From Pseudozobellia thermophila (GTDB taxonomy: Bacteria; Bacteroidota; Bacteroidia; Flavobacteriales; Flavobacteriaceae): a DNA stretch of 64,000 nt. This document shows positions 37,603-42,624 of this stretch, piece by piece. A model generated the notes under the pieces. That model was not told the DNA's origin. It saw nothing but the letters and a program-made list of their open reading frames with translations, and made no database searches. The position numbers and the translations under genes are program-made. The number at the start of each line of letters is the position of its first letter. The stretch's first letter is position 1. The stretch is taken from NCBI RefSeq assembly GCF_900141855.1, contig NZ_FQYU01000006.1, forward strand, positions 124,001 through 188,000, read 5' to 3'.

Positions 37603-39591
37603 TTATATGGGAATCAAAATATCTACTTGTGTGCCCAAGGCCCTGTTTTTGTTTTTGAGGTCCTTGATTGTTATAAGATTGACCATTTTCGACTTTGACA
37701 ATAGATGCAATCGCTTTTCGGTGATTTTAATTCCCATTGGTTTTTTCTTGACAAGGTAATGGGATTGGAGTTTCAGGGAAGCTTCGCGCCCTATGCCATT
37801 GTCGATAATATGGCAGTGTAGAAACCGGTCTTTTTCGAGAACCTCGATGATAAGTCGGCCATCTTTTTCGAGATGCGATAATCCATGCCAGATGGCATTT
37901 TCTACAAAAGGTTGCAAGATCATCGAAGGAATTAGTGTCGCCTCTTGGTCGACCGACTCGTCTACGCTTATATCGCAAATGATTCTTCCCTTAAGTCGGA
38001 GTGATTCCATTTCGATGTACGCTTCAAGCATTTCCAGTTCTTCTTTCAGGCTAACCTTGGGATTTTCGGAGTTCTCTAGCATCAAACGGACCAATTTTGA
38101 GAATTTGGCAAGGTAACGGCTGGCATTTTCATTGTCGGAGGAAAGGATCATTCGGTTGATGGAGTTCATACAGTTAAAAAGAAAGTGCGGATTCATTTGT
38201 GCCCTTAAGGCCTTTAGCTCCAATGTGCTGAGTTCTTCCCTCAGTTCGGTAAGTTTGATTTCCTCGTTTTTGGCAGCTATCAGCTTTTGGTTTTTTAGGC
38301 GCTGTCTGAGCGAATTTATTATCAACCAGGCTATCAGGGAACTTAGTAAAAAGATGCCTATCAGAAAGTTGCGAATAAGGACCTGGCGGCGGTTTTTGGT
38401 TTCCTGAAGTTCTTTGTCGCGGTTCAAAAGCTCAATTTTATGGTCTTTTTGTTCCGTTTCGTAGCGGGTTTCCAGTTCGTGGAGTTGCTTTAGGGTCTGG
38501 GCGTTCAAAATCGAGTCTTTTGTAACCATATAGCGCCTTTGGTACTCGTATGCCCTTTTGTAATTCCCCTTACGCTCGTTCAGGGCCATCAGTGCTTCAT
38601 AGTTGTTCAAAAGTATGGTTTTGGCGTCAATGGTCTCGGCAAGGGCCAAGCTTTTGGCGAGGTAAGGCTCGGCCTTGGTGGTGTTTTGCAATTTTAGATA
38701 TGTGGAGCCTACTTTGTTTAGACTTAGTGCACGATCTTTCTTTGAAGGCAATCCGTTTCTAATGTTCAAGGCGTCTAAATGATAATTAAGCGCCTTTTGG
38801 AAATTTCCTTTGTCTTCGAAGAGGTTGCCTAGGTTTTCGGTAACCGAGGCAATCCCATAGTCCCGATTTTCATCCCGTGCATAATCCAGGGCACGTTGCA
38901 GATGAATTTCCGCTTTGTCGTATTGTCCCATTTCCCGGTAGGTGTTGCCCAAGCTTTCGTAATTCATGGAGAGCCCCGTTATATTATTGATTTTTTCATT
39001 GATGCCGATGGATTCCATATAGGTTTTGAGGGCCTCCCGGGGTTTGCCGAGCTTTCGTTGGATATGTCCGATGGAATGGAGCGTGGTGGCCGTGCTTTCG
39101 TCCATGTTCAGGGACCTGTAGATTTTGAGAATACGAAGGTAATTGGTGAGGCTGGCCGACCAGTCGCCCATGTTATTTTGGATGGTGGCGATCTGGAAGA
39201 GGCCGGCGGTCATTTTCAGGCTGTCGCCCTTTTTTTCGTGAAATGCCACATAGCGGTCAAGATGTTTCAAGCCTTCTGAAAATTCACCTTTAAAACGTTC
39301 GATGACCCCATAGTAGAAGGCCGCCAAATTTTCTGCTTCCCTATCCTTGTTGATGCTTGCCAAGTAGCTAATGCTATCGGCATACATTTGGGCGGTATCC
39401 AGTTTGGAGCGGGTAATGGCATATTCCCATGTGAGGTTGGCGTAGGCCCGTATTCTGGTCGAATCGTCCAGGGCGGCCCTAAGCTGCTGTTTGAGGCTGT
39501 CGATGACCTGCGGGTTTTGGGCGGCTGCCAACCGATGACCGAGAATGTATGCGGCCAAGCATAGCAGGACAATATGAGAACTGAATTTCAT
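37603..39591 (-). CDS. TPR-containing LytS-type sensor histidine kinase, second system
   Basis: This 662-residue protein has a signal peptide (about 1-25, ending AAAQ), a series of TPR repeats (about 30-375) and a transmembrane helix (about 400-420). After it come a short coiled coil and the LytS-type kinase domain with LRAQMNPHFLFNCMNS (His about 466), LIPSMILQPFVENAIWHGL and IIDNGIG. TPRs outside the membrane suggest that it senses a protein or peptide. It is the first gene of the kinase-regulator operon and is preceded by an inverted repeat near 39639. Confidence 0.94.
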   Translation of the reverse strand: MKFSSHIVLLCLAAYILGHRLAAAQNPQVIDSLKQQLRAALDDSTRIRAYANLTWEYAITRSKLDTAQMYADSISYLASINKDREAENLAAFYYGVIERFKGEFSEGLKHLDRYVAFHEKKGDSLKMTAGLFQIATIQNNMGDWSASLTNYLRILKIYRSLNMDESTATTLHSIGHIQRKLGKPREALKTYMESIGINEKINNITGLSMNYESLGNTYREMGQYDKAEIHLQRALDYARDENRDYGIASVTENLGNLFEDKGNFQKALNYHLDALNIRNGLPSKKDRALSLNKVGSTYLKLQNTTKAEPYLAKSLALAETIDAKTILLNNYEALMALNERKGNYKRAYEYQRRYMVTKDSILNAQTLKQLHELETRYETEQKDHKIELLNRDKELQETKNRRQVLIRNFLIGIFLLSSLIAWLIINSLRQRLKNQKLIAAKNEEIKLTELREELSTLELKALRAQMNPHFLFNCMNSINRMILSSDNENASRYLAKFSKLVRLMLENSENPKVSLKEELEMLEAYIEMESLRLKGRIICDISVDESVDQEATLIPSMILQPFVENAIWHGLSHLEKDGRLIIEVLEKDRFLHCHIIDNGIGREASLKLQSHYLVKKKPMGIKITEKRLHLLSKSKMVNLITIKDLKNKNRALGTQVDILIPI

Positions 39592-39638
39592 TAAAGGTCA
39601 CCTTTTTATGAATTGAGCTTCTCGACACGGTCTTTGTT

Positions 39639-39653
39639 ACCTTTTAAAGGTCA
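39639..39653 (-). promoter_or_regulatory. Inverted repeat with a matching direct repeat upstream of the second kinase operon
   Basis: ACCTTT-T-AAAGGT (39639-39651) is a perfect inverted repeat. TTAAAGGTCA from this site recurs at 39591-39600, overlapping the kinase start, 53 bases away. The pair of sites could bind the LytTR regulator or another repressor; this is inference. Confidence 0.35.
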
Positions 39654-39774
39654 TTGTTATGCTTAAGTTACAATAAACATGGATTATACGCAATTTTTTT
39701 GTGGGAGTTAACGATGGTAATAGGGAGGTTGGAGCCGTTGTCCCGGATGTTCTGCTTTTAGTCTGTCCGGTTTA

Positions 39775-39848
39775 ACAGGTGGAGTTCAGGCACAGGCGTT
39801 GGTCCTGACTTTAGTCGGGATGCTCTATCCAGCTTGTGCGGCCTTGGT
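39775..39848 (-). pseudogene. Degenerate tRNA-Arg-like relic
   Basis: Sixteen bases (39819-39834) are identical to the D-arm region of the intact tRNA-Arg (40291-40306). The adjoining anticodon-arm part still pairs (CCTGAC/GTCGGG) but with a changed loop. The acceptor and T-arm cannot be aligned well. It reads as a decayed tRNA copy on the minus strand; the outer limits are approximate. Confidence 0.4.
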
Positions 39849-39875
39849 CTGTCCTGTTACGCTTTTTCCAAAAAC

Positions 39876-39905
39876 AAAAAACCACGCTCTTGCGGGCATG
39901 GTTTT
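39876..39905 (-). terminator. tRNA terminator hairpin, copy A
   Basis: This is the outermost of three copies of the hairpin that follows tRNA-Arg. It has base changes in the stem, and the loop-side bases differ from copies B and C. Confidence 0.5.
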
Positions 39906-40040
39906 CTGAGTGTCGTGATCGCGGAAGGATTACCTGCGGTGTTCCTTTTTTATCAATGGTGCAAATAGAAAACCACGGGCTGCCGCCCTGGTCCCTTGTT
40001 TTTTCCAAAATCCAAAACTTCGTTTCGCTTTTCCAAAAAC

Positions 40041-40070
40041 AAAAAACCACGCCTTTGCGGGCATGGTTTT
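40041..40070 (-). terminator. tRNA terminator hairpin, copy B
   Basis: This is the middle copy, exactly 165 bases from the active copy, with the stem kept and T-rich sequence after it on the minus strand. Confidence 0.55.
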
Positions 40071-40205
40071 CTGAGTGTCGTGATCGCGGAAGGATTACCT
40101 GCGGTGTTCCTTTTTTATCAATGGTGCAAATAGAAAACCACGGGCTGCCGCCCTGGTCCCTTGTTTTTTCCAAAATCCAAAACTTCGTTTCGCTTTTCCA
40201 AAAAC

Positions 40206-40235
40206 AAAAAACCACGCCCTTGCGGACATGGTTTT
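40206..40235 (-). terminator. tRNA-Arg terminator, copy C (adjacent to the tRNA)
   Basis: Minus strand: AAAACCATGTCC and GGGCGTGGTTTT pair around a GCAA loop and are followed by T-rich sequence, 11 bases past the tRNA 3' end. Confidence 0.75.
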
Positions 40236-40245
40236 CTGAGTGTCG

Positions 40246-40319
40246 TGATCGCGGAAGGATTCGAACCTTCGACCGTCTGCTTAGAAGGCAGATGCTCTAT
40301 CCAGCTGAGCTACGCGACC
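40246..40319 (-). tRNA. tRNA-Arg (anticodon TCT)
   Basis: This is a 74-base cloverleaf on the minus strand. The acceptor stem is GGTCGCG/CGCGATC with one G-U pair and discriminator A. The D-arm is GCTC...GAGC, the anticodon stem TCTGC/GCAGA with loop CTTCTAA giving TCT (reads AGA/AGG), and the T-arm GAAGG/CCTTC with TTCGAAT. CCA is not encoded. Its 3' 16 bases are repeated twice downstream. Confidence 0.97.
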
Positions 40320-40509
40320 ATTCCCTTACAAACATCGAAATCCACGATAATCACGGGGTTCCGAAGCCATAAAAAGCCTCTGGGAACAAGGCTTTTTTAT
40401 TTGTGCGTGCAAACTTACTAAAAAATATAGATTTGGAAAGGGTAAAAAAGCCCAAACTTTGGATTTTAATCGGGAGCTTGGAGTGCGTACGGACCTGTCT
40501 GGGCGGTCC

Positions 40510-42624
40510 TTAATCCAACAATACCTCCAAAACTTGGATGGCGGCGTCGGCGATCTTGGTGCCCGGTCCGAAGATGGCCACGGTTCCCGCGTCAAAAAGG
40601 AAGGGGTAATCCTGCTTGGGGATAACCCCGCCAACGACGACCATAATATCTTCCCTGCCGTAGGCCTTGAGTTCCTCAATGACCTGGGGCACCAAGGTCT
40701 TGTGCCCCCCTGCCAAGGAAGAAATGCCCAAAATATGTACATCGTTCTCAACGGCCTGTTTGGCCACTTCCTTGGGCGTCTGGAAGAGCGGGGCGATATC
40801 GACGTCGAAACCCAGGTCGGCATAACCTGTGGCCACCACCCTGGCTCCCCGGTCATGTCCGTCCTGGCCCATTTTGGCAATCAAGATCCGGGGTCTTCTT
40901 CCGTCCTGTTCCGCGAAACAGTCGGACAGTTCGAGCGCCCTTTTAAAACTTTTGTCGTTTTTGATTTCTCTTGAATACACGCCGGTTACCGATTGAACGT
41001 TGGCCTTATGCCGACCAAAGGCAGCTTCGAGGGCTCCGCTGATTTCTCCTAGGGTCGCCCTGACCCTGGCGGCTTTTATCGATAAAGCTAACAAATTTTC
41101 CGCATCGTCGGTATTCTGGTTTTTGTGGCCGGGGGCCATTCTTTCTTTCGCAACGGCGGTTATCTTCTGCAACACGCCTTCCACGGCTCGGGGGTCGCGT
41201 TTTTCCCTTATGTCCCTCAGTCTCGAAACCTGACGTCTTCGCACTTCGTTATTGTCAACTTCCAGGAGTGGCAGTTCACCTTCATCGTCGACCTGGTACT
41301 TGTTGACACCCACGATGATATCCCTGCCGGTATCTATACGGGCCTGTTTTTGGGCGGCTGCCTCCTCGATCCGCATTTTGGGAATACCGGCGCCAATGGC
41401 CTTGGTCATTCCTCCCAAATTCTCAATTTCTTCGATGAGCTCCCAGGCCTTACGGGCCAAGTCGTGGGTGCGTTTTTCTACATAATGGCTTCCGCCCCAA
41501 GGGTCTACGGTCTTGGTAATTTTGGTCTCTTCCCTGAGAAAGAGTTGGGTGTCGCGGGCAATACGCGCCGAAAAATCGGTAGGCAGGGCAATGGCTTCGT
41601 CCAAGGCGTTGGTGTGTAGGCTTTGGGTCCCTCCAAAGACCGCCGCTGCCGCCTCGATGGTGGTGCGGGTAACGTTGTTATAGGGGTCTTGTTCGGTAAG
41701 GCTCCAGCCGCTGGTCTGGCAGTGGGTGCGCAAGGCCATCGATTTTTGGTTTTTGGGTCTAAACGATTTTACGATTTTGGCCCATAGCATACGTGCGGCC
41801 CGTAGTTTGGCAATTTCGATAAAATGGTCCATGCCGATTCCCCAGAAGAACGACAACCTCGGGGCAAAGTCGTCGATATCCAATCCGGCGTTGAGTCCTG
41901 TTCGAATGTATTCCCATCCGTCGGCCAGCGTATAGGCCAATTCGATTTCGGCCGTGGCCCCGGCTTCGTGCATGTGGTATCCCGAAATACTGATACTGTT
42001 GAACTTGGGCATGTGCTTGCTGGTATACCGAAAAATATCGGAAACGATTTGCATGGAAGGTTCCGGCGGATAGATATAGGTATTCCGGACCATAAATTCT
42101 TTAAGAATGTCGTTTTGGATGGTTCCGGTAAGCTTGTCTGGGGAAACGCCCTGTTCTTCGGCCGCCACGATATAAAAGGCCATAATGGGCAGAACGGCCC
42201 CGTTCATGGTCATCGACACCGACATTTTGTCGAGGGGAATTTCATCGAACAGCACCTTCATGTCTTCGACGCTGTCTATGGCCACCCCGGCCTTGCCGAC
42301 ATCACCTGCCACCCGCTCGTGGTCGCTATCATAGCCTCGGTGCGTGGCCAGGTCAAAGGCGATCGACAAACCTTTTTGGCCGGCCTTTAGGTTGCGTTTG
42401 TAAAAGGCATTGCTTTCTTCCGCCGTCGAAAAGCCCGCATATTGCCTAATGGTCCAAGGCTTTCGGATGTACATGGTACTATAGGGGCCACGTAGGTACG
42501 GCGGAAAGCCCGCGGCAAAGTGGAGGTGTTCCCATTCAGGGTCGTTTGAACGGGCTAAGGGGTCACGTGGGCTTGCATCGTTTTGCCCCAAACTAAGGTG
42601 CTGTATGTCTTTTCGATTTTTCAA
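40510..42624 (-). CDS. mutB: Methylmalonyl-CoA mutase large (catalytic) subunit
   Basis: This 704-residue enzyme interconverts (R)-methylmalonyl-CoA and succinyl-CoA using adenosylcobalamin. The N-terminal TIM-barrel part (about 1-550) contains [20 protein letters not shown] and [20 protein letters not shown] (both typical). The C-terminal cobalamin domain (about 570-704) has the base-on motif GQDGHDRGA (His about 588), then [16 protein letters not shown] and GGVIPKQDY. It is complete. The small subunit is encoded just upstream on the same strand, so they form one operon. No epimerase or MeaB chaperone gene is visible here. Confidence 0.97.

Follow-up and report, generated by a model that had tools for sequence, protein, structure and literature searches.

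The window, a 64,000-nucleotide stretch of the Pseudozobellia thermophila genome, holds a single tRNA gene according to ARAGORN, a minus-strand tRNA-Arg(TCT) flanked upstream by a methylmalonyl-CoA mutase gene and downstream by a TPR/histidine-kinase gene. Elsewhere in the genome, the remaining matches to this tRNA stretch are at most 81% identical. Table 1 presents an overview of the features at the locus. The 165-base tandem repeat reported behind the tRNA in a preliminary description was recovered by TRF as the only array in the window (39856-40261; period 165, 2.5 copies, 97% matches). The 17-mer AATCCTTCCGCGATCAC, which runs from the T-loop of the tRNA to its 3' end, has three minus-strand occurrences, one inside the tRNA itself (40261-40245) and two within the array. 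A tail had been proposed for every copy, and every copy does carry one, but at a length of at least 17 nt rather than 16, continuous with the repeated trailer. Two of the 165 positions distinguish unit 1 from unit 2, and the third copy tracks unit 2 over approximately 68 nt (to 39864, with two differences) before diverging. The tails enclose non-coding units only, and no integrase is found among the genes adjoining the array (the mutase and the TPR/histidine-kinase gene).

Two further features of the preliminary description were also borne out. The three terminators in series correspond to three terminator-like hairpins on the minus strand, and the surrounding region (39580-40520, both strands) contains 5 terminator-like sites compared with 1.6 in shuffled sequence. 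The suspected degenerate tRNA copy is an exact 16-mer of the tRNA-Arg D arm, with a local alignment score against the tRNA of 36 where the maximum in 1000 shuffles was 32. The array is also spanned by open reading frames of 178 amino acids (39836-40372, plus strand) and 134 amino acids (39811-40215, minus strand), which are built of in-frame repeats and might be mistaken for proteins in annotation. A coding reading of the repeats was rejected, as these long ORFs merely retranslate the repeat. Similarly, the conserved GAACACCGNAGG was considered as a peptide, E-H-R-R, and set aside because covariation within a hairpin (CC/GG, AC/GT, GC/GC) accounts for it better.

Table 1. Features of the tRNA-Arg(TCT) locus and its tandem units, in coordinates of the window.
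Feature	Position	Strand	Basis
Intact tRNA-Arg(TCT)	40245..40319	-	ARAGORN; Rfam RF00005, 72.2 bits
Unit 1, 165 bp, counted from the tRNA T-loop (AATCC...)	40097..40261	-	Repeat comparison, TRF
Unit 2, 165 bp, begins with tail copy; 2 differences from unit 1	39932..40096	-	Unit comparison
Partial third unit: tail copy, terminator, divergence	39864..39931	-	Unit comparison
tRNA 3' tail, first copy, 17 nt	40080..40096	-	Match to AATCCTTCCGCGATCAC
tRNA 3' tail, second copy, 17 nt	39915..39931	-	Match to AATCCTTCCGCGATCAC
Intrinsic terminator 1	40205..40238	-	Terminator scan
Intrinsic terminator 2	40040..40073	-	Terminator scan
Intrinsic terminator 3	39875..39908	-	Terminator scan
Unit 1 outer long-range helix, 5' strand AGAAAACCAT; same as 5' arm of terminator 1; partner at 40132-40142	40228..40237	-	
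Unit 1 outer long-range helix, 3' strand CGTGGTTTTCT; abuts ATTTGCA box (40131-40125)	40132..40142	-	
Unit 1 right-end domain: ATTTGCA box, spacer, T-arm-like hairpin (40111-40091)	40091..40135	-	Model R1, 60.7 bits (sequence included in the training set)
Unit 2 right-end domain (hairpin 39946-39926)	39926..39970	-	Model R1, 60.7 bits
Relic, exact tRNA-Arg D-arm 16-mer	39819..39834	-	Identity and shuffle test

A unit typically starts immediately behind a tRNA or behind a tail copy and is organized into a terminator, a long-range helix that closes just before a conserved ATTTGCA-like box, and a terminal hairpin. The second hairpin described earlier is present, as one part of this larger fold. 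For the outer helix, 46 tRNA-proximal units of 100-213 nt were extracted by pattern, with the box misplaced in a few (e.g. L032, L122 and L126), and the first 34 nt behind the tRNA were paired with the 17 nt that surround the beginning of the box. The mean energy was -13.67 kcal/mol for cognate partners and -6.52 kcal/mol for swapped ones, with none of 5000 permutations as low. Excluding the short class, the 40 long-class units gave -13.27 versus -6.64 (0 of 5000), and 24 non-redundant units (less than 72% identity) gave -12.65 versus -6.77 (0 of 5000), the true partner ranking first in 11 of the 24. When the windows were shifted by +20, -25 and -35 nt, the values were -6.85, -5.13 and -5.32. 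Over the full set of 46, 22 units rank their true partner first and five rank it 19th or lower, in some because the box pattern was set early; the long helix is part of the minimum-energy fold in 27 units. One segment serves two structures in the window and in the other units read, being both the 5' strand of the long helix and the 5' arm of the terminator, and the two structures are therefore mutually exclusive. G-T and A-C combinations are about equally frequent in the outer helix (6 versus 4), and this helix therefore does not settle which strand is folded.

The right-end hairpin mimics a T arm, with GG...CC in the stem and a closing pair that tracks the host tRNA (AU, GC, GU or UA). An alignment of 102 distinct right ends has 96.6% of its cells paired, with 74 double-sided changes against 15.2 in shuffles and, for the pair formed by columns 35 and 73, CG in 60, AU in 22, GC in 6 and UA in 2; G-U pairs (20) outnumber A-C (4), which fits the tRNA-sense strand, although both the covariation and the G-U counts come from an alignment fitted to the model and are biased towards structure and G-U. 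When the inner stem was located by regular expression instead, 75 of the 102 sequences were captured, with 1.68 of 2 pairs formed (shuffled mean 1.14, maximum 1.37).

The tail itself is more variable. In about one third of units, the right-end hairpin runs into the acceptor tail of the host tRNA. With a full tail defined as at least 13 of 15 positions matching the host, 14 of 46 units carry one, plus two units offset by one base, and a full tail is therefore not essential everywhere. Frequently, the tail is reduced to little beyond AATCC while the hairpin persists. Tail identity nevertheless averages 0.62 to the host and 0.44 to other tRNA kinds, the host value being the higher in 38 of 46 units.

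The module is not confined to this locus. Behind the tmRNA gene of the same genome lies a unit that shares 74.5% identity with that of the window and ends in the tail of the tmRNA, so that two units similar in kind each carry the tail of their own host; the assembly contigs break at the tmRNA repeats. Common to both units is the pre-tail sequence GAACACCGCAGGT, followed by AATCC. An 18-mer taken from this junction was found with at most one mismatch in 22 of 397 family genomes and its reversed control in 0 of 397, and an exact scan of named genomes returned 12 stretches, including Zobellia, Maribacter, Pricia, Subsaximicrobium and Flavobacterium. Within the fetched stretches, a tRNA-Arg, tRNA-Ser, tRNA-Pro or tmRNA gene lies upstream on the same strand at 25 of 31 places from the one-mismatch scan and in 8 of 12 stretches from the exact scan, with the first copy usually 84-158 bp behind the gene and frequently in tandem. 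The six places whose fetched stretch has no upstream tRNA comprise two in the own genome (G000 C26) together with L019, L020, L022 and L038, and the four stretches are L047, L048, L051 and L053. L038, L047, L051 and L053 look like chance matches; the other rows of this kind carry tRNA or tmRNA tails, except L048, which repeats a unit found behind tRNA-Ser in the same MAG.

A broader view is given by a covariance model of the right end, R1, built from 25 sequences. At E<=0.01, where E-values are rough, R1 matches 118 of 299 sampled Flavobacteriaceae genomes and 103 of 236 genera. The genomic context was examined for 93 of 115 matches; the 22 not included are a row of 30.9 bits and 21 rows from among the lowest scores, and L157, which overlaps L154, was left out. 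For 59 sources drawn from the better-scoring matches, the fetched sequence shows a same-strand gene for tmRNA or for a tRNA (Arg, Val, Ser, Phe, Leu, Tyr or Ala) upstream in 51, with the nearest right-end copy ending no more than 489 nt behind it; the other eight are L146, L147, L148, L159, L174, L182, L185 and L189. In a sample of the order, 15 of 296 genomes matched, 11 of them from the same family. The four matches from outside include L203 with an upstream tRNA-Met, L205 with an upstream tRNA-Arg, and L206 and L207, for which the fetched stretch shows no tRNA and a chance match is possible. In a sample of the phylum, whose share outside the family is not given, 6 of 296 genomes matched, all from the same family. 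When units are compared with one another, the closest relative lies at the same tRNA amino-acid kind or tmRNA in 38 of 46 cases, and inheritance therefore looks vertical. Subfamilies also cross between genes, as with four short-class units that are 78-88% identical behind tRNA-Arg genes with anticodons acg, tcg and tct. Judged from these sequence comparisons, structured non-coding modules of one family are widespread in Flavobacteriaceae at the 3' ends of tRNA and tmRNA genes, and the window unit is one of them.

Some arrays are long. Behind tRNA-Val(gac), L138 (G189) has eight model matches spaced 114-124 bp apart, and L139 (G077) has nine with a 69-bp period. The tmRNA-linked array of the own genome (L098 and L097; start of C18 and end of C26) and that of Zobellia (L099) combine the unit, a short non-coding module and a gene for a collagen-repeat protein in differing order, and a second type of right end, AACGCTCGGGCGTC, precedes the tmRNA tail.

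One syntenic relative, Zobellia, was examined at the tRNA-Arg locus. Its genome (G001) has a tmRNA stretch that is letter-identical to Zobellia uliginosa. The gene order is that of the window (mutase, tRNA-Arg, units, histidine kinase, response regulator), and by tblastn the order and strand are conserved with identities of 75% for the mutase, 26% for the histidine kinase and 33% for the response regulator; additional DNA separates the mutase from the tRNA in Zobellia. The first Zobellia unit is of a different subtype, 71% identical to unit 1 of the window, and the second is of the window type. Three copies of AATCCTTCCGCGATCAC in the window correspond to three copies of AATCCTGGCGCGATCAC in Zobellia, whereas the units are 87.5% alike. 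Since the tails are uniform within each genome yet different between genomes, they appear to recombine. Given the order of subtypes in Zobellia, the window array could derive from a Zobellia-like state by loss of the first unit and duplication of the second. Relatives vary in unit number and order. The preliminary description had set the opposite outcome, an invariant arrangement in relatives, against both of its readings, collapse of a tRNA-Arg array and scars of repeated integration.

The second of those readings is partly supported. Tail copies act like recombination sites, and integrases or cargo are present at sites of this kind in relatives. The unit itself is not the leftover of one element: it folds as a module, its helices covary, and it recurs behind eight tRNA amino-acid kinds and the tmRNA. 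Integrase genes adjoin a tail or unit at L019 and L152 (tRNA-Arg(TCT)-type), at L102 (tmRNA-type tail) and at L182 (tRNA-Arg-type tail). In L152 (G017:C3:628500-637175), two very similar copies of the unit, one with tRNA-Arg(TCT) and the other with a displaced 3' half of a tRNA, enclose approximately 7.7 kb that includes integrase domains. At L174, an N-terminal ORF has no Pfam match and by eye resembles the L102 integrase. Two copies of tRNA tail plus unit flank a cargo-like gene in G235 (L153; Fic/DUF4172) and in G119 (L150; KAP NTPase). At the tmRNA locus of Zobellia (L099), the order is tmRNA, a gene for a 183-aa collagen-repeat protein, and unit. In the own genome, the tmRNA and unit come first, and another contig that ends in the same repeats has a unit followed by a similar collagen-repeat gene; these two contigs probably join. 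Judged by gene content and order, the tail-unit sites of tRNA and tmRNA genes are hot spots of integration, as suspected in the preliminary description.

The closest known counterpart is the tyrT locus of E. coli, whose repeats, to our knowledge, have been treated so far as a local curiosity with unclear function. In MG1655, three repeats with a spacing of 178 bp (165 bp in the window) lie behind tyrV, a related sequence lies between tyrT and tyrV, and an RNA named RttR is annotated. As a control, the Rfam RtT model (RF00391) matches the E. coli locus 4 times. Each repeat ends in ...TAATCCTTCCCCCACCACCA, the tail of tRNA-Tyr; the one unit that was folded has a 10-bp closing stem, and the annotated 3' end of RttR coincides with the CCA in the first of the tail copies. 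Of 50 records sampled evenly from the 5391 E. coli records with a match, 43 show 1-4 RtT and 1 or 2 tRNA-Tyr features within the matched segment, the remaining 7 matching the tRNA alone. In both systems, therefore, tandem non-coding repeats of variable copy number follow directly on a tRNA, and each repeat has the 3' tail of that tRNA, a TAATCC junction and a stem that pairs with the tail. They differ in that the right end of the E. coli unit holds a large branched insert and an annotated small ORF (tpr), whereas the flavobacterial family occurs behind many tRNA kinds as well as the tmRNA. Sequence homology to RtT was looked for and not found: RF00391 is absent from the window (39500-40500, E<=1) and from ten related loci (E<=0.5), R1 has no match at the E. 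coli locus (L215) at E<=1, and a position-weight scan of E. coli scores 10.5 at the correct place against a maximum of 19.7 in 50 kb of background. By analogy, then, the flavobacterial units may work like RtT, and they are filed outside its membership. No paper on such units was found in the open-access full-text literature, a body that mostly excludes subscription journals.

Two other known systems share part of the layout. At attachment sites of tyrosine integrases, the tRNA 3' tail is duplicated with the tRNA left intact, and integrases do occur at such sites in relatives; in contrast to those elements, the 165-bp unit lacks an integrase, is a conserved folded module and often has a reduced tail. 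GIY-YIG tRNA cassettes are likewise tandem; besides a body, they have a terminator or a fragment of a tRNA, and a tRNA copy that is partial or altered. These cassettes, however, are protein-coding, copy the tRNA from the D/anticodon region onward or its 5' part, and have no T-arm-like end. Tandem cassettes of GIY-YIG ORFs beside tRNAs were observed at L091 (G000:C18:140300-142200), L090 (G000:C19), L087 (G197), L092 (G113) and L089 (G395). Those in the loci read include partial or altered tRNA copies, and ARAGORN calls tRNA-SeC and tRNA-Stop in L090 and L092. A search for such cassettes beside tRNAs in open-access full-text literature returned nothing from the part of the literature that it covers.

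The interpretation favored here, in which confidence and doubt are about evenly balanced, is that the repeats form a structured, tRNA-linked RNA module resembling RtT and amplified by recombination between tails, with its function suggested by structure and analogy. Transcripts that pass terminator 1 would fold into the unit structure, and the T-arm-like end plus tail would be handled like the 3' end of a tRNA, so that each unit could be released as a discrete RNA of approximately 165 nt. The serial terminators may at the same time dampen read-through. Recombination between the tRNA tail and a tail copy would allow copies to be gained or lost and tails to be homogenised, and would always leave the tRNA intact. 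This proposed sequence of read-through RNA, tRNA-like 3' end and copy number set via tails draws on the predicted structure and on the E. coli annotation.

A different possibility, which we consider doubtful but worth keeping in mind, is that the module acts as DNA, either as a small non-autonomous integrative element or as a portable attachment site. In that case, the tail would be the recombination core, the terminator would restore termination of the tRNA, and the folded right end would be the site of a recombinase on duplex or single-stranded DNA. The integrase domains that adjoin tails or units in four loci, the Fic, KAP NTPase and collagen-repeat genes that copies of the unit or tail enclose in G235, G119 and Zobellia, the order of tmRNA unit and cargo, which differs between Zobellia and what the broken contigs reveal of the own genome, and the similar subfamilies behind different tRNAs are all consistent with it. 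Against it, each of the 46 units is too short for a recombinase gene, the hairpin persists where the tail is often missing, helix pairing is conserved and sequence is not, which is unlike a sequence-specific recombinase site, and the predominance of closest relatives at the same kind of gene looks vertical. The integrases and cargo at relatives' sites leave a DNA-level role for the units open. It is unlikely that the array is a neutral tandem duplication of tRNA trailer and terminators with tighter termination as its sole effect. The three serial terminators and the near identity of units 1 and 2 would suit such an origin, but a terminator has no need of the long-range and right-end helices that covary throughout the family.

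Homing-type repair would offer another route of spread, with the units as non-autonomous companions of GIY-YIG tRNA cassettes. Similarly laid-out cassettes, with a terminator, an ORF, an altered tRNA arm and a tail, do occur in the family and in the own genome, where the eight PF01541 matches are all on contigs other than that of the window array. Nonetheless, the idea is very unlikely: no GIY-YIG match lies between the tRNA and the right end in the loci examined, and where both share a tRNA (G197, L087; G354, L082) the cassettes are 5' and the motif 3' of it. A GIY-YIG origin of the units themselves was discarded, as no GIY-YIG ORF lies within any unit in the loci read. Least credible of all is the collapse of a tRNA-Arg array, in which the tRNA bodies were lost and the tails, terminators and relic remained. 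The D-arm relic is real, and since E. coli has an RtT match between its two tRNA-Tyr genes as well as repeats behind them, such a collapse is possible in principle. Yet the syntenic Zobellia locus has one tRNA-Arg with a similar unit, no tRNA array, and no relic visible in the stretch read, and on this locus the collapse was rejected as the main reading. In addition, the right end, which is found behind many tRNAs, is no remnant of a tRNA: it imitates a T arm into which a hairpin is inserted.

Returning to the RtT-like RNA module, a more speculative extension is that the units represent a large, unnamed class of tRNA-linked structured RNAs that combine an imitation T arm with the tail of their host. 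Members of such a class might be released by tRNA-processing enzymes and spread between tRNA genes through tail recombination, with E. coli RtT as a distant or convergent case. At a practical level, the units may explain why spurious ORFs are called, and why some assemblies break, at tRNA and tmRNA loci. A strongly covarying family behind many tRNA and tmRNA genes across an entire bacterial family makes repeats of the tyrT type a testable question, namely whether small RNAs use tRNA tails as portable 3' ends or mobile cargo uses them as recombination ports.
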